From: Sulfitobacter sp. S190
GTDB taxonomy: Bacteria > Pseudomonadota > Alphaproteobacteria > Rhodobacterales > Rhodobacteraceae
Length of the DNA stretch: 64,000 nt
Direction of reading: 5' to 3'
Assembly: GCF_025141935.1 (NCBI RefSeq)
Contig: NZ_CP081121.1
Location: 1 to 64,000, forward strand
Position 1 is the first letter of the stretch; each line of letters starts with the position of its first letter. The notes beneath the pieces were generated by a model that was not told the origin of the DNA, searched no databases, and was given only the letters and a program-made list of their open reading frames with translations. Positions 5,293 to 45,251 of the stretch are shown piece by piece. Position numbers and translations under genes: made by a program.

Positions 5293-6361
5293 GTGGCAAG
5301 CAGGGAAGACATTCAGGCGATCCTGAAATCGATCGCGGATCCGGTCAGCGACAGCGATATCATGGCGGCAGGCGTGGTGCGGGCGTTGAACGTGGACGAT
5401 TCCGGCACGGTGCGCTTGTGATGGAAATCGCGCCGTCGGCGGCAGCCGCCTATGAGGCGGTGAAGACAGAGGCTGAGGCGCGGATCGGTGCGCTTGACGG
5501 CGTGGAAAAGGTCGCAATCGTGCTTACGGGCCATTCCGCCCAACCTGCACCGCCGCAACTGACCCCGCAAAAGAAAGCGGAACCGACCGGACCGCAGAAA
5601 ATTCCGGGCATAGACCACATCATTGCCATCGCATCCGGCAAGGGCGGCGTGGGCAAATCGACCGTGTCGGCCAATCTGGCTTGCGCGCTTGCCGCGCAGG
5701 GCCGCCGGGTGGGGCTGCTGGATGCAGATGTCTACGGCCCGTCGCAGCCCCGCATGCTGGGTGTTTCCGGCCGCCCCTCCAGTCCGGATGGCAAGACAAT
5801 CCTGCCGATGCGAAACCACGGTGTCACAATGATGTCGATTGGCCTGATGACCAATGAGGATCAGGCTGTCGTTGGCGCGGTCCGATGCTGATGGGCGCAT
5901 TGCAGCAGATGATGACACAGGTCCAATGGGGCGCCTTGGATGTCCTGTTGGTCGATCTGCCGCCCGGCACGGGCGATGTTCAGATGACGCTTTCGCAAAA
6001 GGCGCAGGTCGACGGGTGCGATTGTCGTCTCTACGCCGCAGGATGTCGCCCTGCTCGACGCCCGCAAGGGGATCGACATGTTTCAAGCAGTTGCAGGTCC
6101 CAATCCTGGGCATGATCGAGAACATGAGCACCCACATCTGTTCCAGCTGTGGCCACGAGGAACATTGTTTCGGACACGGCGGTTGTCGCCGCAGAGGCCA
6201 AGAAAATAGGTGTGCCGCTGTTGGCCGAAGTGCCGCTGCATCTTGATATCCGGCTGGCCGCTGACGGGGGCGCGCCGATTGTGGTCAGCCAACCCGACAG
6301 CGCGCAGGCACAGGCTTTCCATGAAGTGGCCAAGGCGCTCGTGACGCAGGGTGTGGCATGA
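5293..6361 (+). pseudogene. Mrp/ApbC P-loop ATPase for Fe-S cluster delivery, five frameshifts
   Basis: Mrp/NBP35-family proteins bind and transfer [4Fe-4S] clusters using a P-loop. Joined across frames the product is about 355 residues with a DUF59-like N-terminal domain, the deviant Walker A GKGGVGKST at about 5640, LLDADVYGPSQPRMLG, a Walker B-like [14 protein letters not shown] at about 5950, and a C-terminal [15 protein letters not shown] at about 6138. The frame changes near 5417, 5881, 6014, 6080 and 6172, each explained by one base. The GTG at 5293 is the likely start. Its stop overlaps the next gene by 4 bp. If the lesions are real the gene is dead; if they are sequence errors it is a normal housekeeping Fe-S carrier. 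Confidence 0.85.
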
Positions 6362-7070
6362 CTGGACCGCTGGTCTTTCCGCCCTTGTTTCATGGCGAGC
6401 CGGTCAGCGAAGATGCGATGACGCAGGCCTGCATGAGAGCGACGCAAGGATGCGACGCGGGTCTTGTGGTCTATGCCCTCGGTGCCAATACCCTCGAGGC
6501 CGCCATTGTCTTCGCACCCGAAGTGCCGCTCTCCAAAGCGATTGCGATGCTGCCGATTTGCGGGATCGGCTTTCAAAACGCGCTCGGCGCTCTGGCGCCT
6601 GCCGGGAAGTGGCCGTGCACCTGCAATGGGACGGCACCGATACGGATCAACGGCGCGCGCTGTGGCAGACTGACCGCCGCCGCGGCACAGGCGACGCCCG
6701 ACGCAGTGCCCGACTGGCTGGTGATTGGGCTTTATCTGCCCCTTTGGCCGACTGACAGCCGCGATGCGGCGGCGCCACACCCGATCTGACCACGCTTTAT
6801 GCTGAAGGCTGCGTCGATGTGGCGGCCCCCACCCTGACAGAAGCCTACGTCAGACACACTCTCAACTGGCTGAACCGGTGGGAGGACGAAGGCGCCAAAC
6901 CCGTTCACGATGAATGGCGCGGCTTGGCCCATGGCGTCGGTGAGCAGGCGTCACAAGGCGGCAAGACAGGGACATTCATGGGCATCGACGAAGACTTTGG
7001 CATGCTGTTGCGCACGCAGGAGGGCACGACGCTCGTGCCTTTGACCACACTTCTGGAGGACCCGTCATGA
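6358..7070 (+). pseudogene. Biotin/lipoate ligase-like protein, about three frameshifts
   Basis: The joined product of about 237 residues resembles Rhodobacteraceae proteins annotated as biotin/lipoate A/B ligase family with a C-terminal DUF4444-like part. The N-terminal half has FPPLFHGE and GALAP..EVAVHLQW, then INGARCGRL and DWLVIGLYLPLWP, and the C-terminal part has GTFMGIDEDFGMLLRTQ. The frame shifts near 6604 and 6645 (a compensating pair) and again near 6765, after which the C-terminus runs to 7070. Ligase activity is an inference from family naming, and the substrate is unknown. The ATG overlaps the Mrp stop and the TGA overlaps the next start, so these form one operon. Confidence 0.65.
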
Positions 7071-11116: not shown

Positions 11117-11950
11117 TCAAAGCCCGCTGCGCAAGTGCCAGAGTTCGGGAAACAGCTCGACCTCCAGCATGCGGCGCAGGTATTTCACCCCTGACGTCCC
11201 ACCCGTGCCCCGCTTAAACCCGATGATACGTTCCACTGTCGTCACATGATTAAAGCGCCAGCGGCGGAAGTAATCTTCGAGATCAACAAGTTTTTCTGCC
11301 AGTTCGTACAACTGCCAATGAGTTTCAGGCGATTTATAGACCCTCGTCCAGGCCTCGATGATTGCGTCCGAAGCGATATGCGGGCCATCCTGCACGAATG
11401 CCTGCGCCGGAAGCGTGATAGAAAGCGCGTCCTCCAAAGCGCGCAACGCCACATGATAGAGCGACGGACGATCAAGTTCCTGCACCAGCTTGGCGTGCAG
11501 TTCCGGTCGATGCTCATGCACCTTCAACATTGCCGTATTACGGTTGCCGACCAGAAATTCGATCAACCGGTACTGATGTGACTGGAACCCCGATGAAGCG
11601 CCCAGATCCTCGCGGAAGGTCGTGTAATCACTGGGCGTCATCGTGCGCAAGACATCCCAGGCATTGTTCAACTGTTCGAATATCCGCGCAACGCGCGTTA
11701 TCATCTTGAAGGCTTCACCAAAGCGCGCGGCGGCGATGTGACCGCGCGCGGCATCCAGTTCGTGCAACGCCAGCCGCATCCAGAGCTCTGACGTCTGATG
11801 CTGGATAATGAACAGCATCTCATCATGCGCGTCAGAAAGCGGGCCCTGAGCACCCAAAAGATCATTCAGACCGAGGTAGTCCCCATAGCTCATCGCGTCG
11901 CGGTACGACATTTTTGCGCCCTCGCCCGCCGGATCATAGCCTTTGCTCAT
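11117..11950 (-). CDS. kynA: Tryptophan 2,3-dioxygenase
   Basis: A 277-residue heme dioxygenase that opens the tryptophan indole ring to N-formylkynurenine. Visible family features are DEMLFIIQHQTSELWMRL at about residues 43-60, the AHELD-type helix after it, FREDLGASSGFQSHQYR at about 112 and the heme-ligand region RFNHVTTVERIIG at about 236. A C-terminal GTSGVKYLRR is also typical. Its ATG overlaps the stop of the upstream alpha/beta hydrolase by 4 bp, making a two-gene kynurenine unit. No kynureninase gene is in the window. Confidence 0.95.
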   Translation of the reverse strand: MSKGYDPAGEGAKMSYRDAMSYGDYLGLNDLLGAQGPLSDAHDEMLFIIQHQTSELWMRLALHELDAARGHIAAARFGEAFKMITRVARIFEQLNNAWDVLRTMTPSDYTTFREDLGASSGFQSHQYRLIEFLVGNRNTAMLKVHEHRPELHAKLVQELDRPSLYHVALRALEDALSITLPAQAFVQDGPHIASDAIIEAWTRVYKSPETHWQLYELAEKLVDLEDYFRRWRFNHVTTVERIIGFKRGTGGTSGVKYLRRMLEVELFPELWHLRSGL

Positions 11951-12756
11951 CTCAGTATTTCCTTCATCAAGGCGCTTTGCGGATCGGCGAGTGCATCTAT
12001 GACCGAAAAATGGTTTTCACCGGTATCGTAGGTTTCGCTCACATCGACACGCTGTGCCGCCGCATATTCCGCACCCATGCGGTTCTGGCGCAGGAATTCT
12101 GGACGTTCTCCCGCACCGACCCAGAAACTGATCGGGATGTCGGAATTGAACTCTTGAAAAACGGTACTTTCGGCGCGGGCCTCTGCCTGATCGAGCATGA
12201 GCGTTTCGTTCATACGGGTGTGCAGCAGCGGCTCCAGATGGTGGACACCGCTGATCGAGGTGATGCGATGGATACGGGCCTGCACATCGGGCGTCAACAC
12301 CGCCGGGTCTGCCATCCGTGCCACCAGATGCCCGCCCGCGGAATGACCGGCAAGCGCGATCGGCCCCGACTGCTTTGACGCAACCCGGGTGACTGCCTGT
12401 GCAATCGCGCCCGTGATCTCGTGAACACGGGCGTCAGGTGCGAGCGGGTAGCTGGGGATGGCGACGCTCCACCCATGGGCCAGCGCGCCCTGCGACATAT
12501 TGCTCCACCACGACTTGTCGAAGAGGTGCCAGTACCCCCCGTGCACAAAGATCAGGCATCCTCGCGGGGGACCCTCGGGCCTGAAAAAATCGAAAACCTG
12601 CCGCGCCCCTTCGCCGTAAGCAAGGTCGCGTTCCGCACGACCCTCATCGTCCATGCGGTGGCGAAAATCCGCTGCCTGCTTGGCCCAAACGTCCGCAAGA
12701 CGCCCTGCCCCCTCCACGTATCCGGAGTTGTCGAACGCGTCATTCCAATCAATCAT
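11947..12756 (-). CDS. Alpha/beta hydrolase, probable kynurenine formamidase
   Basis: A 269-residue alpha/beta hydrolase. It has the oxyanion motif HGGYW at about residue 71, the nucleophile elbow GHSAGGH at about 137 and a C-terminal His in ENHFSV at about 249. Members with this architecture act as kynurenine formamidases, cleaving the product of tryptophan dioxygenase. The direct translational coupling to kynA supports that role. A generic esterase is the alternative. Confidence 0.8.
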   Translation of the reverse strand: MIDWNDAFDNSGYVEGAGRLADVWAKQAADFRHRMDDEGRAERDLAYGEGARQVFDFFRPEGPPRGCLIFVHGGYWHLFDKSWWSNMSQGALAHGWSVAIPSYPLAPDARVHEITGAIAQAVTRVASKQSGPIALAGHSAGGHLVARMADPAVLTPDVQARIHRITSISGVHHLEPLLHTRMNETLMLDQAEARAESTVFQEFNSDIPISFWVGAGERPEFLRQNRMGAEYAAAQRVDVSETYDTGENHFSVIDALADPQSALMKEILR

Positions 12757-12945
12757 GCGTAGCTCCCGGACACGCGATCACCATATGTGGTTTCCGTTGC
12801 TTTGGGCTTAAAATTTCAGCCCTAAAACATTAGTTTGCCCACCCTTTCGGGGCAACGGGAAACTGTCCGATTTGCTTGAAAAAATACAACCTTTGGCTAT
12901 GCTCCTTTCAATGCCGTATTAGCCATGCGGCGTTTAGGGGGACTC

Positions 12946-13776
12946 ATGACAGATCGTGAAGACGATCCGTCTTTGTTTCATCATGGCCTCTACGAGAGAG
13001 CCAGGGACGAGATAGGGACGCTTCGAGCGAAACTTCCCGAGGACGCGTTCGCGTCACTCGCGAGAGAAGTGATCCGACGTGTGTCGGACAACCCGGTTGC
13101 TGCGCGCCCACAGTTTGATGCGCCGCAGCGGGCCAGAATTGATGCGCTGGCGCGTGCCCTTCTCGACAAGGGTCCGCAAGCCGGAATTGAATTCATCCAA
13201 TCTGTCCGGGCGCAGGGCGCATCGGTGGAAACAGTCTATCTGGGGTATCTTGCCGAAGCGGCCCGCGCGCTGGGAAACTGGTGGGAACAGGACAGGATAA
13301 GTTTTGTCGATGTGACAATCGCCACCGGTAATATCTACGCGGTCATGCGCGGGCTGAAACCGCTCTTCCGAACCGTATCCGCAACGCCTGCGACCAGGTC
13401 CGCGCTGTTTGCCAGTGTTCCGGGCGAAACACACACGCTCGGCATTGAGATGGCGGCCGACTTGTTCACTAAAAAAGGGTGGGACATCACGCTCAAGCGT
13501 CAGATGGACCACGATGAATTTATCGAGCAGGCAAGCCTTATTGGCCCGCCCCTCATCGGCTTGTCCGCTGCAGGCGAACACGCGATCGTACCCTTGGCGC
13601 GGATGATCGTGGCCCTGCGCATCAGCAATCCGAAAGCCGCGATCATGGTGGGCGGAAACGTCGTAAACGTCGCGTCCGACCTAATCGAGACAATGGGTGT
13701 GGAGGCAATGGCAGACGATTTCGATGCCGCCTATGCCGCCGCAAACCGGCTCTGGGAACAGCAACAGGCCGAATAG
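12946..13776 (+). CDS. Cobalamin-binding regulator-like protein, AerR/PpaA family paralog
   Basis: A 276-residue protein with an N-terminal helical segment and a C-terminal B12-binding fold. The motif GETHTLG places His at about residue 163, equivalent to the HTLG His in the AerR-like protein at 62021. Later segments GLSAAGEHAI and AAIMVGGNVVN also fit a B12-binding Rossmann domain. I chose the ATG at 12946 because it has a GGGGG stretch 4 nt upstream. It is convergent with cycA. AerR/PpaA proteins bind cobalamin and modulate CrtJ/PpsR; whether this second copy does so is inference. No DNA-binding domain is evident. Confidence 0.75.
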   Translation: MTDREDDPSLFHHGLYERARDEIGTLRAKLPEDAFASLAREVIRRVSDNPVAARPQFDAPQRARIDALARALLDKGPQAGIEFIQSVRAQGASVETVYLGYLAEAARALGNWWEQDRISFVDVTIATGNIYAVMRGLKPLFRTVSATPATRSALFASVPGETHTLGIEMAADLFTKKGWDITLKRQMDHDEFIEQASLIGPPLIGLSAAGEHAIVPLARMIVALRISNPKAAIMVGGNVVNVASDLIETMGVEAMADDFDAAYAAANRLWEQQQAE

Positions 13777-38225: not shown

Positions 38226-39841
38226 CCCCCTGGGCGCAAGCGACAACGGCGTTGGCCTTGCTTGCCATTGATCCGGGGCTGGGGGGTATGGTGCTGCGCT
38301 GTCGGGCATCGCCCGTCCGCGACGCGCTGGAAAAAGCGCTGCCCCGTCTCCCCTTGTCGATCGCAAAGCTGCATCCCGCGATGTCACCGGATGTGCTCGA
38401 TGACGGCATAGATATTGCCGCGACACTTGCCGCCGGAACGCTGGAAAAACGGCGCGGCCTTCTCGAAAAACCGGCGACATTCGTGCTGTCGATGGCCGAA
38501 CGGTCATCGGGCTACCTATCGGCGCGCCTGGCCAATACGCTTGACCAACGCGCCGGACATATCGTCATCGCGCTCGATGAAGGGACCGCCGATGAAGCGA
38601 CACCTGCATCGCTTGCGGATAGGTTGGCATTTCACGTTGACCTGAACGATAGTCCTATCTCGAGCATCGGTCCCATTCCCGAATTTCGCCAATTTAGAGA
38701 CGATATTGGCGCGACAGAAGATGTTATTGAGGCATTGGTCAACCTCTCGGTCCGACTAGGCATAGACAGCCTTCGCGCACCCGCACTGGCGCTGCGCGCG
38801 GCCAAGGCCCACGCCCTTTTGCACAACCGCGATACCGTCACTGACCCCGATATCAGCGCCGCTGTCGCTTTGGTGTTTGCCCACCGCGCGACACGCCTGC
38901 CGCATCCGGATGAGACGCAAACGTCCGATCCGCCCAGCGACGCCCCCCAGCAGCTGACACCGCAAGACGGTATGATACCGGAAGACATGTTGCTTGACGC
39001 GGTCAAGGCCGCGCTGCCCCCTGTCCTGCTGGATACCCTTTCGTCGGGCAAAGCCGCACCAAAGGCACAAGCGGGCGGCGCGGGCCGAAAAATTCGAGGC
39101 CGGCGCCGTGGGAGACCCCTACCCGCGCGACAGGGCGGAGACAGTTCCGGGAGACCTGATCTGATCGCCACGTTACGCGCTGCGGTCCCTTGGCAGACGC
39201 TGCGCCAAAATCCATCGAACCCCCGGCACGGGCCTGTCATTCGCAAGTCGGATTTGCGCTACGCCCGTTTCCAGCACCACTCTGACAGGCTGCTTATCTT
39301 TACGGTCGACGCGTCCGGATCCGCCGCGATGGCCCGTCTGGGCGAAGCGAAGGGTGCGATAGAACTTCTGCTCGCCCAGGCCTACGCCAGCCGGGACCAG
39401 GTTGCCCTCGTTTCATTCCGCAAAGATGCGGCGGAAGTGCTGCTTGAACCCACACGGTCTCTGGTACAGACAAAACGGAAGCTTGCGGATCTTCCCGGTG
39501 GCGGCGGCACACCCTTGGCCGCCGGACTGATCGCTGCGCAGCATCTCGCCCTTCAGTCACGAAACAAGGGGTTAGACCCCCACATCGTCCTGCTGACGGA
39601 TGGTCGCAGCAACATCGCGCTGGACGGCGCGCCAGATAGAAAGCGGGCCGCGCAAGACGCGGGTCGTGCCGCCGATGCGCTTGCCACAGCCGGTCTTTCA
39701 GGGTTGGTGATCGATACCGGGCGCAGACCGGAGGCCGGACTGGCAGCGCTCGCACGGCGCTGGCGCGCTGGCTATCTGCCCCTTCCCCGCGCCGATGCTC
39801 AGCAAGTGTCGGCTGCAGTGTCTGCGTCGTTTGGCCCCTGA
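38222..39841 (+). CDS. bchD: Magnesium chelatase subunit D
   Basis: A 539-residue subunit. The N-terminal AAA+ domain (about 1-230) lacks a Walker A, as in other BchD. A Pro/acid-rich and Arg/Gly-rich linker follows (about 235-310). The C-terminal von Willebrand A domain (about 350-539) has the MIDAS motif DASGSAAM, plus LLTDGRSN near 460. It forms the double ring with BchI. Overlaps bchI by 4 bp and bchO by 1 bp. Confidence 0.96.
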   Translation: MTPWAQATTALALLAIDPGLGGMVLRCRASPVRDALEKALPRLPLSIAKLHPAMSPDVLDDGIDIAATLAAGTLEKRRGLLEKPATFVLSMAERSSGYLSARLANTLDQRAGHIVIALDEGTADEATPASLADRLAFHVDLNDSPISSIGPIPEFRQFRDDIGATEDVIEALVNLSVRLGIDSLRAPALALRAAKAHALLHNRDTVTDPDISAAVALVFAHRATRLPHPDETQTSDPPSDAPQQLTPQDGMIPEDMLLDAVKAALPPVLLDTLSSGKAAPKAQAGGAGRKIRGRRRGRPLPARQGGDSSGRPDLIATLRAAVPWQTLRQNPSNPRHGPVIRKSDLRYARFQHHSDRLLIFTVDASGSAAMARLGEAKGAIELLLAQAYASRDQVALVSFRKDAAEVLLEPTRSLVQTKRKLADLPGGGGTPLAAGLIAAQHLALQSRNKGLDPHIVLLTDGRSNIALDGAPDRKRAAQDAGRAADALATAGLSGLVIDTGRRPEAGLAALARRWRAGYLPLPRADAQQVSAAVSASFGP

Positions 39842-40698
39842 TGAAGTGGGAGACGGAAAAATACGACTGGCCGATGTCAGCTTGTTCGAGATTTGTCCGA
39901 AGCGGCCCACATCACTGGCACGTTCAGGTATCTGGCACAGGTGAGACACTGCTTTTGCTTCACGGCGCAGGTGGCGCAACACAAAGCTGGCGCCACCTTT
40001 TCCCGATGCTTGCGAAAGATTACAAGGTCGTCGCAATCGACCTACCGGGCCAGGGCTTCACCCGCCTGGGTGCACGCCACCGCTGCGGGCTCGAGGAGAT
40101 GGCGGAGGACATAGCGGGCCTTTGCCGGGATGAAAACATCCAACCCCGCGCAATAGTTGGACATTCGGCGGGTGCGGCGATCGGCTTTGACCTCGCGCCG
40201 CGGTTGCCGAAGACGCCTCATGTCATAGGCATCAACGCAGCACTTGCCCATTTCAAGGGGGTCGCAGGGCTTCTGTTTCCGCTTATGGCAAAAACGCTCG
40301 CGATGATGCCAGGCGTCGCGGGCCTTTTTACGGCACAGAACGGAAACGCAAAGTCGGTCAGGCGGCTCATCGAAGGGACAGGCTCAACACTGCCCCTTGA
40401 TGATTTGGGGTATTACAGACGGCTTGTCGGGGACCGAGACCACGTCAATGCGACGCTGCAGATGATGGCACAATGGGATCTTGGCCCCTTGCTATCCCGC
40501 CTACCGCGCCTTGACGTTCAAGGCCTTTTGATCGCCGGAAGTCGTGATAAAGCAGTGCCGTCCCAAACATCTGCGCAGATCTCCAGCCAGATGAAACACG
40601 TCGGATTCAAACTGGTTGATGGCTTGGGACACCTTGCTCACGAGGAAGACCCTGCAAGCATGCGCAAAATGATCGCTGCTTATATAAGTGACTACTGA
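39841..40698 (+). CDS. bchO: BchO, alpha/beta hydrolase linked to magnesium chelatase
   Basis: A 285-residue alpha/beta hydrolase fold protein. It has LLLLHGAGGATQSWRHL at about 36, the nucleophile elbow VGHSAGAAIGFDL at about 103 and GLGHLAHEEDP near the end with the catalytic His. BchO is encoded after bchID in many phototrophs; its exact activity is unsettled. The start overlaps the bchD stop (TGATG). The gene is the last PGC gene before the replication module. Confidence 0.93.
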   Translation: MKWETEKYDWPMSACSRFVRSGPHHWHVQVSGTGETLLLLHGAGGATQSWRHLFPMLAKDYKVVAIDLPGQGFTRLGARHRCGLEEMAEDIAGLCRDENIQPRAIVGHSAGAAIGFDLAPRLPKTPHVIGINAALAHFKGVAGLLFPLMAKTLAMMPGVAGLFTAQNGNAKSVRRLIEGTGSTLPLDDLGYYRRLVGDRDHVNATLQMMAQWDLGPLLSRLPRLDVQGLLIAGSRDKAVPSQTSAQISSQMKHVGFKLVDGLGHLAHEEDPASMRKMIAAYISDY

Positions 40699-40735: not shown

Positions 40736-40764
40736 CAGGGTTACCCGCGGGTAACCCTGCTTTT
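40736..40764. terminator. Perfect palindromic terminator between bchO and parB
   Basis: A 24-bp perfect palindrome with arms CAGGGTTACCCG and CGGGTAACCCTG (40736-40759), followed on the plus strand by CTTTTCCC. It would end the crtA-bchO transcript and, read the other way, the parA-parB transcript. Confidence 0.8.
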
Positions 40765-40770
40765 CCCAGA

Positions 40771-41832
40771 TTACTCGCCTTTCAGCACGGCCTCGAAAGC
40801 CTCTATCGCCTTGGCGAGCTGATCTTTGGGAACATTCGCGTAGTCACGCTTGCCCACAATCCGGCACTCGCCTTTTCTGGCCGTGACTTTGGTCTCGCCG
40901 ATGCGGAACTCGAACTTCTCTGAGGCCTTTGCCTTCGGTGACTTCGTTGCGGCGGCAGGCTTGGGTGGCGCAGATGCGAACGACTTGAGAATGCGAAGTT
41001 GATCCGCCTCATCCGTCGCCTGCCGAAGCTCCGCACGCAGCGCGTCAGCCCCCTGCCCTGCCCTCAAAAGCCGCGACACCTCTACGCCCAGATTGCGCGC
41101 AACTGCTTTGGGCCAGCGCAAATCCTCGCCGAGAGACTGCATCAGAAAAACGAAGGCCCGAACATAGGACCGCTTGGTCTTATGTAGCGACGCATAAAGC
41201 CGAAGCACCATCGCCTCTGCGTCGCCGCCTTCGACGCTATCGTCCTGTGCCGCGGTGATCGCAACCTGTGCCATTTCCGCAAAGGTCAGGTTTTCACGAA
41301 CGACGTTCTCTTCGACCATATCGACATAACGTTCGATCCGGTCCGCGCCATCCGTTTCGATCCGCGCGGTCACACTTGCGAACTGCGGATCACCGGTTTC
41401 GGCAAAAAGCTGGCTCAGTGCAGTGAAGCGGCGCCACCCTTTCTTGAGCTGCAAGGCGCCAGCTTCGTCGCGATATACTTCGATCGGTTCTTTCTGTCCC
41501 CGTTCGCGAATGGAGGACTTCAACTCTTCCATTTCGTCACTCGCCGCGACATCGTCCAGCGCAAGCCGGTCGCGGGGCAGATCGCTCGTCGATATCTCAC
41601 CCAGCGGCACAGCGACCAGAACGCGGCCTTCATCCTGCGCTGCACGGAACGCTTTCGCGTCATCGGCATTCTTGCGGCGCTGCTCTACTTTCGCTTCCGT
41701 AGCCTCCGTCAGGCTTTGCGCAGTTTCCCGCACCGCGGCACCCATGGGGCCTACCGTGCGGATCCGGGGTTCGGATTTCTGCTTCGGCGCATCGTCGATG
41801 GGCCCGAAGCCGAATTTATTCTTGCCGCTCAT
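40771..41832 (-). CDS. parB: Plasmid-type partitioning protein ParB
   Basis: A 353-residue ParB family protein. A charged N-terminal region is followed by the ParB nuclease-like domain at about 75-185 (IRERGQKEPIEVYRDE, LKKGWRRFTALSQLF, MVEENVVRENLTFAEMAQ) and a helix-turn-helix region at about 200-260 (TKRSYVRAFVFLMQSL). It would bind centromere-like sites and act with ParA in segregation. Its ATG overlaps the parA stop by 4 bp. Chromosomal ParB is less likely because the neighbour is a DnaA-like plasmid initiator. Confidence 0.88.
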   Translation of the reverse strand: MSGKNKFGFGPIDDAPKQKSEPRIRTVGPMGAAVRETAQSLTEATEAKVEQRRKNADDAKAFRAAQDEGRVLVAVPLGEISTSDLPRDRLALDDVAASDEMEELKSSIRERGQKEPIEVYRDEAGALQLKKGWRRFTALSQLFAETGDPQFASVTARIETDGADRIERYVDMVEENVVRENLTFAEMAQVAITAAQDDSVEGGDAEAMVLRLYASLHKTKRSYVRAFVFLMQSLGEDLRWPKAVARNLGVEVSRLLRAGQGADALRAELRQATDEADQLRILKSFASAPPKPAAATKSPKAKASEKFEFRIGETKVTARKGECRIVGKRDYANVPKDQLAKAIEAFEAVLKGE

Positions 41833-43139
41833 GTGTCACCCTTTCCTGTTTGCGCGTTGTCGCGCCACGCCGCCAACACAGTGTCCTTGAACTCTCCGTA
41901 GGCACGGTCGAAGCTCTGCCGCGCCCGTTTCCAGGTTTCCCGTGTCATCTGCCGATAGTCCTGTTCGTATACGCTCATCTGGAAACGTCCCGATTGCTCC
42001 ACCGCGCGAGTCATCTCGATCGGATTGCTGCACACATCCGCGCCAAAGACGTTTCGGAAGGCATCCATCATCGCGGAGTGTAAAGGATTGGTCGCCTCGA
42101 ACCGGGTCATGAGCAAACGGATGTCCTTGAAGGTTTTGGGCAGCGTCAGCCCAGCGTCTTCCGCCATGCCGGAAAACCCGTCGGAGATATCGGCCATCGC
42201 GTCTCCCAATTGCCCCAGGTAAGAGGTCGTGCTGTCGTATTCCCAGTAACCGGGGCCCGACGGGATGTAGAGGATATCGCTCGCAAAAGCTGCGTTTAGA
42301 GACTGGTACCCGATGGCAGGCGGGCAATCAAAGATGATCACGTCGTATTGGTCGTCGGGCAATTCATCGAGATAGCGGGCGACGCACCCGAAGAATGACC
42401 ATGCTTTGTGCAGACTGCGGTACTGCGCCGATGCGAACTCTACAAATGCCGCATTGGCACAGCTTGGTATGATGTCGATCGTGGGCCAGCACGTTGGTTG
42501 AATGAAGTCCTGAAACCTCTGGGTTCCGATGCTTTGCACATCTTCCGGCAGCTCGTCCGAGGAAGGGTAGGGGCAATCGTCAGGGTCGTCGTAGCTTTCT
42601 GCGATGCGGTCTGCCTCTCTGCACAGATCCCTGCACATGATCCCCCAAACCGTATTCCACTCCTTTACCTCGACGATCCCCATTGAATGGGTCAGTGTCG
42701 CTTGCGGGTCGAAGTCGATACACAAGACCCGGTAGCCGTCCAGCGCGGCGGCATTGGCGAGATGCTGCGCCACCACTGTCTTACCCACGCCGCCTTTGAA
42801 GTTGCTTACCGCAATCCGCATGGCACGCCCCTTGAGCCGTTCGGGCTGCAGGTTCTTTCCTCGAAATCTGAGCCTGCGGCGCAGTTCGTTGATCTCCTCC
42901 AGTGAAAACCAGCGTTGCCGTCCGTCTTCCTGTGTTTCGCCCTGGGGCAGGGACGGATCGTCGGCCAGTTTCTTGCGAAGCGTATCGGCCGGAACGTCGA
43001 ACATGAATTGGCTAATTTCCCAGATGGAAAACGGACGAAGTGCCTTGATCTCCCCAGGGCTGAAAGTTGCACGCCGAACCGCCGCCTGCTGTGCGAGGCT
43101 CCGGTCGTTCATGTTCTGAAGGTCTGTATGGTCTCTCAT
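41829..43139 (-). CDS. parA: Plasmid-type partitioning ATPase ParA
   Basis: A 436-residue type Ia-like ParA. An N-terminal extension of about 100 residues with a winged-helix/MerR-like segment (FSIWEISQFMFDVPADTLRK) probably binds DNA. The deviant Walker A is NFKGGVGKTVVAQHLAN at about 113, followed by CIDFDPQATLTHSMG at about 141 and the Walker B-like VIIFDCPPAIGYQSLNAA near 247. I chose the ATG at 43139; a longer reading would run through the repeats of the intergenic region. First gene of parA-parB. Confidence 0.88.
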   Translation of the reverse strand: MRDHTDLQNMNDRSLAQQAAVRRATFSPGEIKALRPFSIWEISQFMFDVPADTLRKKLADDPSLPQGETQEDGRQRWFSLEEINELRRRLRFRGKNLQPERLKGRAMRIAVSNFKGGVGKTVVAQHLANAAALDGYRVLCIDFDPQATLTHSMGIVEVKEWNTVWGIMCRDLCREADRIAESYDDPDDCPYPSSDELPEDVQSIGTQRFQDFIQPTCWPTIDIIPSCANAAFVEFASAQYRSLHKAWSFFGCVARYLDELPDDQYDVIIFDCPPAIGYQSLNAAFASDILYIPSGPGYWEYDSTTSYLGQLGDAMADISDGFSGMAEDAGLTLPKTFKDIRLLMTRFEATNPLHSAMMDAFRNVFGADVCSNPIEMTRAVEQSGRFQMSVYEQDYRQMTRETWKRARQSFDRAYGEFKDTVLAAWRDNAQTGKGDT

Positions 43140-43174
43140 TTTTGTCTGCTCTTGTTTTTGGACGCTATTTGCAG

Positions 43175-43253
43175 AATAACGGGATTTGGGAAAGACGCAA
43201 AAGAAGAAATCGGGAATTTGCGCTTTTTCGACTGCCTGCGCGAAATAACGGGA
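43175..43253 (+). repeat. Direct repeat pair AATAACGGGA
   Basis: Two identical 10-mers at 43175-43184 and 43244-43253, 69 bp apart start to start, upstream of parA. The core ACGGGA is shared with the inverted repeat near the initiator gene. Confidence 0.55.
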
Positions 43254-43405
43254 CAAAGCGCACCCGGATCAAATTTGATTTGGTGACACTTATGGCCTGT
43301 TCCAGACATATAGGGTGACATCAGAGAGGCAATTGGGTGACGCCTTGCATGACACCCTTCACCTAAACTAACCTGATTTCTAAATGAGATTTGGTATGAC
43401 CCCTC

Positions 43406-43444
43406 AATCCCGTACTTTCAAATCCATTGACAGAAAACGGGATT
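43406..43444. repeat. Inverted repeat AATCCCGT / ACGGGATT
   Basis: Perfect 8-bp arms at 43406-43413 and 43437-43444 with a 23-bp spacer, about 84 bp before the initiator start. A likely binding site for the initiator or ParB. Confidence 0.55.
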
Positions 43445-43527
43445 TCGTGCCTTCATGGACCTAATCAGAATCGGCCCCGCCAGACGGGTCGGCTGAATAA
43501 AAACAGAGGCGATGCAGTGAGATCCCA

Positions 43528-44220
43528 ATGGAACCTAAAAGGTTAACCGGCGCCCATGCCGCGGCGCTGAAGTATGATGTTTTGACAGCGATCAGTCTCA
43601 AAGGACTGCATGGCGAAGCGCATGACGCCTTGTCAATGATGCGGCTCCTTGCAGTGGTGACCGCGCGATACAACTGGGCCCGTGACGAGTTGTCGATCGG
43701 ACAGAAAGATATGGCCCGGATGTGGGGGGTCACCGAACGCACGGCGAAACGCGAAGTAAAGCGCTGGTTGGCGACAGGTGTCGTGACGTGTTCGCGGCCG
43801 GGCGTGCGGGGCAGGGTGGCGGCCTACCGTATCAACCTGCGCACCCTGTATAATGCCACAGCAGATTACTGGCATACGGTCGGGCCCGATTTTGTGGCGA
43901 GGATGGGTGCGGGACAACTCGATGCCGCGGCCAAGGTCGTTCGAGTAGACTTCAAAGCGCAGCAACCGTCATCTCCGCCACGGCCCACGGCGCCGGAATG
44001 GGCCGCGGCAAGCGCCTATATTCAGAGCGCCCAGCCACAAGTCCACGCGAGTTGGATCGCACCGCTTGAATTCGTGGGCGATGATGGCGTGACCGTACGT
44101 CTGCGCGGGCCGTCGCCCTTTACTGCCCGCTATGTCGAGACACACCACGCAAAGCTGATTGTGGATGCGGTTGAGACCTGTATTGGCCCCTTGCGCCGCG
44201 TGATTATTGAAGCGCCTTAG
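43528..44220 (+). CDS. repA: DnaA-like plasmid replication initiator
   Basis: A 230-residue initiator. The first 110 residues resemble a winged-helix region ([26 protein letters not shown] near 60-85), and the C-terminal part from about 150 resembles the DnaA N-terminal domain ([29 protein letters not shown], then [17 protein letters not shown]). This combination, without the AAA+ domain of chromosomal DnaA, is the DnaA-like replicon type of Rhodobacteraceae plasmids. It is convergent with hemE and the stops overlap by 4 bp. The N-terminal assignment is less sure than the C-terminal one. Confidence 0.85.
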
Positions 44221-45251
44221 GCGTTGCGCACCGTGTCTATCATCAACTGTACGTTTTCCGGATCCGCGTCCGGCGTGATACCGTGGCCGAGGTTGAAGAT
44301 ATGCGGCCCGCCGCGCAGCGCCTCAACAATCCGCCGCGTTTCGGACACAAGCGCCTCACCGCCGGTCACCATATGCGAAGATTTCAGGTTGCCCTGTACA
44401 CACCCGTCAGGCTGCACATGCTGCGCGACCCAACTCGCATCAACGCCGTCGTCGATGGCGATACAATCCGCACCGATCGCCGCATGCGCGCCTTGATACC
44501 GTTCGCCTGCACCCCGGGGGAATGCGATGATCGGGACATGTGGATGCTTTTCCTTGAGCGCGGAGGTGATCCGCTGCATTGGCTTGATCGAATACTGAGC
44601 AAAGTCAGCACCTTGGAGAGAGCCAGCCCAGCTGTCGAAAATCTTCATGACCTCGGCGCCCGCCTCAATTTGGGCGGACATATAGTGAATCGTGGCTTCA
44701 GTGATCCGATCCATCAACGCATCGAAAACCACGCGATCTGCGTCTTTCAAAGCGTGCGCTGGACCCTGGTCCGGCGTGCCACGACCGGCGATCATATAGG
44801 TGGCCACCGTCCAGGGTGCGCCGGCGAAACCGATGAGAGTGGTCTCGGAAGGCAACTCACGCGATAGAATCTTTACCGTCTCATAGATTGGCGACAAATG
44901 GTCGTGGATCGCATCGGCAGGAACCAATTTGTCCAGTTCCGCCTGCGACGTAATCGTCGAGAGCCGGGGGCCTTCTCCCGTGACGAACCAAAGATCTGCG
45001 CCCAACGCCTGCGGAACCAGCAAAATGTCGGCAAAAAGGATTGCGGCATTAAACCCGTAGCGGCGGATGGGTTGCAATGTAACTTCGGCTGCAAGTTCGG
45101 GATTGTAGCACAGCGACAGGAAATCGCCCGCTTGTGCACGCGTTGCGCGGTACTCGGGCAGATAGCGGCCAGCCTGGCGCATCATCCATATCGGTGGCGT
45201 GGGCAACACTTCACCGGCGAGTGCGCGGAGCACGGTTTTCTTGGCTGTCAT
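44217..45251 (-). CDS. hemE: Uroporphyrinogen decarboxylase
   Basis: A 344-residue cytosolic enzyme that makes coproporphyrinogen III. Features are [16 protein letters not shown] near residues 19-34, [16 protein letters not shown] near 143 and FDSWAGSL near 209. It is divergent from hemC across a 100-bp gap with one PpsR-like operator. Its 3' end overlaps the DnaA-like initiator gene by 4 bp. Confidence 0.97.

Follow-up and report, generated by a model that had tools for sequence, protein, structure and literature searches.

Likely in-place exchange of the replication cassette on a circular photosynthesis plasmid of Sulfitobacter sp. S190

Introduction

In the available text of PMC6052148, six photosynthesis plasmids are reported, five with a replication module of the DnaA-like I type and one with a RepB-III module, and the modules lie at precisely one position. 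The same text assigns the photosynthesis plasmid of R. litoralis to DnaA-like I, suggests that in S. guttiformis DnaA-like I gave way to RepB-III, and states that the DnaA-like plasmid type is confined to Rhodobacteraceae. Here we describe a module at 40771-44220 of a 64,000-nucleotide stretch of Sulfitobacter sp. S190 (“the window”, meaning the whole stretch analysed; bases 1-64000 of contig C2, NZ_CP081121.1). Its parB, parA and DnaA-like initiator genes sit between bchO and hemE of a photosynthesis gene cluster (PGC), and they very likely form a plasmid replication and partition module. The cassette falls outside both published kinds, and we regard it as likely that it arrived by exchange in place on a circular 145.7-kb photosynthesis plasmid, a resident cassette having been replaced at the bchO/hemE junction.

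Cassette type and its slot in the photosynthesis gene cluster

The interval between bchO and hemE (the slot) and its surroundings are laid out as follows (window coordinates; pSD118 is the S. guttiformis plasmid):

12946-64000, no strand: photosynthesis gene cluster, flanking the module left and right (45/45 searched pSD118 PGC genes found)
39841-40698, plus strand: bchO, bounding the slot on the left (TIGR03056, 327 bits; cut-off 172.6)
40771-41832, minus strand: parB, partition protein of 353 amino acids (NCBIfam ParB-type matches below cut-offs)
41829-43139, minus strand: parA, partition ATPase of 436 amino acids (AAA_31, 89 bits)
43528-44220, plus strand: DnaA-like replication initiator of 230 amino acids (weak winged-helix-like and DnaA_N-like matches)
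44217-45251, minus strand: hemE, right flank of the slot (TIGR01464, 401 bits against 303)

Open reading frames and the NCBIfam models of the flanking genes bear out the initial annotation, which had placed parB-parA, divergent from an initiator with a DnaA N domain, between bchO and hemE. To place the cassette, initiators were compared in a tree from which duplicate loci had been removed (56/64 rows kept). The tree divides into 20 rows that include the window (the clade w) and 36 rows that include R. litoralis (the clade lit), with a split support of 100/99; lit is taken as DnaA-like I because the available text of PMC6052148 places R. litoralis there. The window ParA has mean identities of 88% with w proteins, 59% with those of lit and 28% with those of RepB-III. 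Membership of DnaA-like I was rejected, as the initiator lies outside the 36-row clade and ParA reaches 59% against the 85% that lit ParA proteins show among themselves; membership of RepB-III was rejected because C2 has no RepB match and Rep3_N occurs in the genome only on C5. The earlier statement that PGCs outside the chromosome with a DnaA-like module at their centre are on record holds, but the modules in the available text of PMC6052148 are DnaA-like I or RepB-III and the window's is neither. The cassette may represent a separate compatibility group, or its initiator may have its own history. Of the remaining 19 members of w, several of them from draft genomes, only the S. alexandrii initiator lies on a contig with a bchO match, among the matches listed.

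Relatives fill the same slot in different ways. The gene bchO is present in 18/62 genomes of the genus, and its slot holds a lit module in five (G049, G032, G052, G025 and G015), RepB-III in five (G054, G016, G055, G056 and G001), an inverted Rep3 module in one (G058), a w-type cassette directly in one (the window) and ∼114 kb including a w module in one (G057, S. alexandrii). It is empty in S. aestuariivivens (G010), is followed by other genes with no module seen in three (G042, whose contig ends ∼2.6 kb further on, G043 and G027), and falls at a contig end in one (G031). Slot lengths are 3,518 bp (window), 3,931-4,021 bp (RepB-III), 3,618-3,659 bp (lit) and 4,239 bp (inverted Rep3 module). 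In a family sample of 394 genomes, initiator homologues were found in 98 (E 1e-20) and bchO in at least 165 (E 1e-25), with both genes within ∼4 kb in at least 12, window included, two of them across contig ends. A survey of a named collection, which covered the best 80 of 539 loci and includes some of the same genomes as above, found module genes at the slot in 14/80 (13 DnaA-like I, two of them cut by a contig end, and one RepB-III) and no w-group module among the 80; 14 of the 80 contigs end within 4 kb of bchO, both cut loci among them. Complete plasmid records with a module at the slot are pSD118, pRLO149_94, R. ponti p1, T. omphalii and Thalassococcus sp. S3. In a Litoreibacter metagenome-assembled genome (L166, 10921-14340), the slot is filled by hemF-like and membrane-acyltransferase-like genes, named from their sequences, and holds no module. 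A relative of a slot cassette is also seen outside the slot: on a 78-kb plasmid of the host itself (C5, 21750-22175; L246), Rep3 and ParA stretches are 83 and 93% identical to those of the inverted set of G058.

Phylogeny of the PGC itself conflicts with that of the cassettes. In a 20-row tree selected from a 44-row tree (AcsF usable in 21/44 rows; the broken BchO of S. alexandrii left out), the five RepB-III PGCs and the inverted-Rep3 one together form the sister group of the window (99/100), with the inner branch at 94/97. Within RepB-III, the inverted-Rep3 PGC is paired with a single RepB-III PGC (100/100), and the PGC of S. alexandrii joins those lit PGCs that belong to the genus (100/100). 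The approximately unbiased (AU) test rejects three groupings, each taken as a single clade: window plus S. alexandrii (P = 8.6e-5), RepB-III (P = 0.0043) and lit (P = 2e-85). Slot state must change at least 6 times to fit the 20-row tree and 11 times to fit the 44-row one, gains and losses counted together. Judged from these trees, the replacement of RepB-III by an inverted Rep3 cassette would be the plainest case of replacement. DNA homology on the right side stops close to a gene end: in 11/11 hemE loci, similarity to the window breaks off at 44211-44229, the hemE stop codon lying at 44217. The loci compared were pSD118, L117, L118, L119, L121, L120, L122, L124, L125, L128 and S. alexandrii; G015 was left out, as was G054 (contig end), which pSD118 represents.

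The same junction could have been reached by independent outsourcing, in which a w-type plasmid directly captured a chromosomal PGC and a harmless convergent junction was hit anew. Module-free junctions of this sort exist: in S. aestuariivivens (L123, 2269-4346) a 1.65-Mb contig carries bchO and hemA with ∼20 bp between them, and empty bchO-cytochrome-hemA junctions are frequent in the survey of the named collection. However, the S. aestuariivivens junction also lacks hemE and hemC, whereas the order bchO-module-hemE-hemC-hemA is common to the window and the other module-bearing PGCs of the genus (10/11 whole; the contig of G054 ends in hemE, and pSD118 from the same species shows the remaining order), and for at least one case the nesting of the inverted Rep3 cassette within RepB-III speaks for replacement. 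We therefore consider independent capture unlikely. The S. aestuariivivens cluster is possibly a plasmid PGC that has been re-integrated.

Several observations weigh against exchange in place, or blur its outline. The swaps may have run in either order, and the w cassette could predate RepB-III in the subclade. The window initiator sits on a long branch (1.32, flagged by treekit) and has a mean identity of 43% to other w initiators (55% within w, 65% within lit) though ParA stands at 88%, so that the initiator may have a history separate from that of its neighbours. The groups submitted to the AU test were chosen after the 44-row tree had been inspected. Inside the slot, homology resumes only in the parA of lit (4/4 loci, 65-66% DNA identity); because this gene still aligns, an exchange between w and lit would be one between distant relatives and not between unrelated cassettes. 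On the left, homology fades within bchO, at ∼40480-40560, which makes that boundary imprecise. Finally, the cargo that C2 has in common with pSD118 (18/55 genes) is weak evidence of common descent, since a gene from one shared block is present in 41/62 genomes of the genus and a gene from the other in 57/62; after these controls, cargo overlap was dropped as a main argument for a single C2/pSD118 lineage. For one cargo gene, the pSD118 copy is not the nearest to that of C2 (79%, against 85% in G040).

The replicon

The initial annotation had taken the window to be probably part of a plasmid, and the contig bears this out. C2 is 145,674 bp long and is accompanied by the 3,516,039-bp C1, at whose start dnaA sits, and by four smaller contigs. 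When the ends of C2 are joined, a collinear minus-strand fdh operon runs across the junction in the order DUF3305, DUF3306, TorD, Tat-signal protein, fdhA, iron-sulphur subunit (names read from the sequences), with the end point between the Tat-signal protein gene and fdhA. This continuity is good evidence that C2 is a circle, and it answers in favour of a closed form the question of a closed or linear plasmid raised earlier. Neither rRNA operons nor a chromosomal origin were found on C2: the Bac_DnaA model has no match anywhere on it, a tRNA search of C2 found none, and an Rfam search of C2 gave no match at the gathering threshold. Across the genome, DnaA_N matches only dnaA on C1 and the module initiator on C2. 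A chromosomal location of the window was rejected on the basis of contig sizes, circular continuity and the lack of tRNA and Rfam matches. C2 accordingly carries an extrachromosomal PGC with a central replication module, placed between bchO and the hem/puh side. Its GC content of 59.8% compares with an average of 59.7% over nine samples of the chromosome. Replicase typing, which took in C2, C3, C5 and C6, located Rep3 on C5, RPA on C3 and RP-C on C6, and none of these three models matched C2.

Wrong joining of the module to the PGC during assembly has in its favour that a single assembly underlies the comparison. Of the 18 genomes of the genus with bchO, however, 12 have a module at this very junction, as do complete plasmid records, and the contig closes on itself; an artefact seems extremely improbable. 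Elsewhere in the window, an Mrp/NBP35-like ATPase gene (as read from the sequence; 5418-6789, plus strand) is split over overlapping frames, indicating a pseudogene or a sequencing frameshift, and ParA references match it weakly.

Module genes, origin region and candidate centromere

The initiator is short and resembles the DnaA N domain. Its DnaA_N match (20.5 bits, residues 169-215) is under the cut-off of 24.6, its winged-helix match (HTH_Crp_2, residues 45-90) is weak and below the curated cut-off, no AAA+ domain match was found in it, and none of the NCBIfam models matched. The DnaA-like I initiator of R. litoralis scores alike (23 bits, also under the DnaA_N cut-off). With its gene divergent from a parA-parB operon, the initiator fits the DnaA-like plasmid replication type of Rhodobacterales. 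Its homologues over at least 80% of the length occur in 288 plasmid records, every one less than 60% identical; the ten largest organism groups listed among these records, beyond which there are 29 further names, we take to be Rhodobacteraceae. ParB found no Pfam match at E 0.001. For parA, the ATG at 43139 is most likely the start, correcting the TTG at 43256, because the opening MRDHxDL is common to 5/5 w-group sequences, window included. A pN/pS of ∼0.15 against 4/4 relatives tested, two of them near-copies of each other, indicates that ParA is under purifying selection; this value and the 288 records with an initiator homologue argue that the frames of the module are not there by chance. 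At the right edge, initiator and hemE are convergent, their stop codons interlocking in TTAA at 44217-44220.

The non-coding parts show the following features:

40736-40759, no strand: candidate parS centromere, a perfect 24-bp palindrome with 12-bp arms, just beyond parB
43140-43527, no strand: candidate origin region with iterons, in the gap between parA and initiator
43179-43187, plus strand: ACGGGATTT element near parA
43281-43288, plus strand: iteron 1, TGGTGACA (pattern scan)
43313-43320, plus strand: iteron 2, GGGTGACA, 32 bp after iteron 1 (pattern scan)
43335-43342, plus strand: iteron 3, GGGTGACG, 22 bp after iteron 2 (pattern scan)
43427-43445, plus strand: TTGACA...ACGGGATTT element upstream of the initiator, candidate autoregulatory site

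The repeats noted earlier in the gap between parA and initiator are genuine and consist of three direct iterons, a number that 0/2000 shuffles reached for the window. Of five w-group origins, those of the window, S. alexandrii and S. indolifex have three strict copies each, at identical 32/22-bp spacing, while W074 has two strict copies and P. pseudonitzschiae one, variant copies having been read by eye at the remaining places. The number of shuffles (of 2000) reaching as many iterons was 0 for S. indolifex, 0 for S. alexandrii, 1 for W074 and 56 for P. pseudonitzschiae. TTGACA followed by CGGGATTT was read by eye in 5/5 w-group origins, and the element at 43427-43445 is a possible autoregulatory site of the initiator; a sigma-70 scan listed no promoter there.

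Leftward, the module extends past parB to the palindrome at 40736-40759. It is the longest of five palindromes on C2 (arms of at least 9 bp, loop of at most 2), and its 16-bp core has one exact occurrence in the whole genome. The variants GGTTACCCNNGGGTAACC / GGTAACCCATGGGTTACC lie beyond parB in 4/4 other w-group plasmids inspected, one to three in each, and other palindromes, read by eye, stand beside parB in RepB-III loci (5/5) and DnaA-like I loci (4/4). The palindrome next to parB is different in each of the three kinds of cassette, and we infer that these group-specific palindromes are parS sites.

A leftover module, its parAB and initiator inactive while some other, unrecognised system keeps C2, would fit the sub-threshold DnaA_N match, and a protein scan of C2 that covered 20 cargo proteins leaves room for a further replicase. 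Against this, all three genes are open, ParA appears to be under purifying selection, iterons and palindrome are conserved, and the searched replicase families have no member elsewhere on C2, which makes a dead module very unlikely. The working system envisaged here would replicate and partition the 145.7-kb circular photosynthesis plasmid: the initiator most likely binds the iterons at 43281-43342 and opens the origin, would then load the host helicase through its part resembling DnaA domain I, and the most likely target of ParB is the palindrome at 40736-40759, while ParA would move the ParB-bound plasmid copies apart.

S. alexandrii and a second backbone

In the S. alexandrii plasmid, bchO and hemE are ∼114 kb apart, with the w cassette at 80321-83768 in between, which looks like a fused stage. 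Pieces of the ∼114 kb match three different THAF37 plasmids, so the stretch may be a mosaic and not one inserted plasmid. Beside this stretch, the S. alexandrii bchO is frameshifted (NZ_CP018077, 1-549 and 184863-185176; L239, L243). S. alexandrii was rejected as a direct ancestor of the window arrangement: its PGC goes with DnaA-like I, its initiator is placed elsewhere in w, and it has little in common with C2 beyond PGC and module.

The same two kinds of cassette also meet in another setting. Over 14,402 bp, pTHAF37_d is collinear with S. alexandrii at 87%, and in both the collinearity stops at the stop codon of an RND permease gene, after which S. alexandrii has the w cassette and pTHAF37_d a RepB-III-like set in the same orientation. 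The Rep, ParA and ParB of the pTHAF37_d set reach 73/79/56% identity with their RepB-III counterparts on pSD118, and a palindrome stands just beyond parB. Thus w and RepB-III kinds of cassette alternate in this second backbone, which is absent from the nine plasmid records with a bchO match (E 1e-15). Near the w cassette of S. indolifex pDSM14862_d, a short annotated repC (L252, 157-468) is separated from it by a transposase, a possible trace of another replicon.

Gene cluster and mobility

The last PGC gene, ppsR, extends to contig position 64236. On C2, 41/45 of the pSD118 PGC genes are found at ≥60% identity and ≥70% coverage; the 45-gene search left out the PucC-family gene of pSD118 (11579-13009), for which a separate comparison gave a C2 match at 78%. 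The initial annotation had added that phototrophy would be mobile in one step. This was not borne out, as no transfer gene was seen among 20 cargo proteins scanned, a sample far from exhaustive, and PLSDB types all nine bchO plasmid records as non-mobilizable. Two S. mediterraneus plasmids that are absent from those nine records (NZ_CP081111, 53748-55816; NZ_CP069002, 9357-11425) carry hemE-hemC-MaoC at ∼74% DNA identity to the window, perhaps as a remnant of a PGC.

A route for cassette exchange and its implications

Gene content, circular continuity, conserved origin layout, group palindromes, conflicting trees and the end of homology are direct observations, and replacement in place is their likely explanation. 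We picture a cassette with its own candidate parS and origin taking the place of another at the convergent bchO/hemE junction of an older plasmid. The likely route would be fusion with a second plasmid at the junction, the resident cassette and surplus DNA then being lost; fusion then deletion is plausible, though itself inferred along with the direction of change. More generally, the cassettes of Sulfitobacter-group plasmids may be exchangeable plug-ins, of which four kinds, with their own initiator, ParAB and inspected palindromes, would have replaced one another repeatedly at this one convergent junction, in both orientations, up to the stop codon of an adjacent gene and by way of fusion. 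To this wider view we give about an even chance. If true, compatibility would be a swappable coat, and unchanged cargo could coexist with new residents.

Replicase typing presumes that the history of the replicase is that of the plasmid. Here the cargo would stay and the replicase change, and typing alone would therefore split one plasmid lineage and join unrelated ones. A change of cassette could avoid incompatibility, giving an account of how PGCs persist in hosts with several resident plasmids. The stop-codon boundaries, together with the S. alexandrii and THAF37 plasmids, open the mechanism to experiment.

Comparison with known systems

DnaA-like I plasmids such as R. litoralis pRLO149_94 resemble the window in their DnaA_N-type initiator, divergent parAB, position at the slot and a PGC on a circular plasmid. 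However, the window initiator and ParA are 37.6 and 58% identical to those of R. litoralis, the initiator clades are separate, and the palindrome beside parB differs from that of the four DnaA-like I loci inspected. In the window, hemE-hemC adjoin the module, as they do among the DnaA-like I loci examined only in those of the genus. S. guttiformis pSD118 agrees with the window in PGC genes (45/45), slot, flanking order and orientation of parB-parA and initiator, but it has a Rep3-type initiator, its ParA is 26% identical, and its ParB and initiator are without a match on C2. The 185-kb plasmid of S. alexandrii AM1-D1 (NZ_CP018077) likewise combines a PGC with a w cassette (ParA 87%, ParB 61%, initiator 45%) and has the same iteron spacing, whereas its cassette is embedded in ∼114 kb of other DNA that separates bchO from hemE, and its bchO is broken. 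S. indolifex pDSM14862_d, Sulfitobacter sp. W074 and P. pseudonitzschiae p5 have the cassette order, the kind of palindrome and a similar origin layout in common with the window (initiator identity 44% to S. indolifex and 46% to P. pseudonitzschiae), but in these three plasmids the cassette is not between bchO and hemE, and they are not among the nine bchO records. Relative to the available text of PMC6052148, what is new here is a DnaA-like cassette of another kind at the slot, the nesting of an inverted Rep3 cassette in RepB-III, group-specific palindromes, the position at which homology ends, the arrangement in S. alexandrii and the alternation of cassettes in a second backbone.

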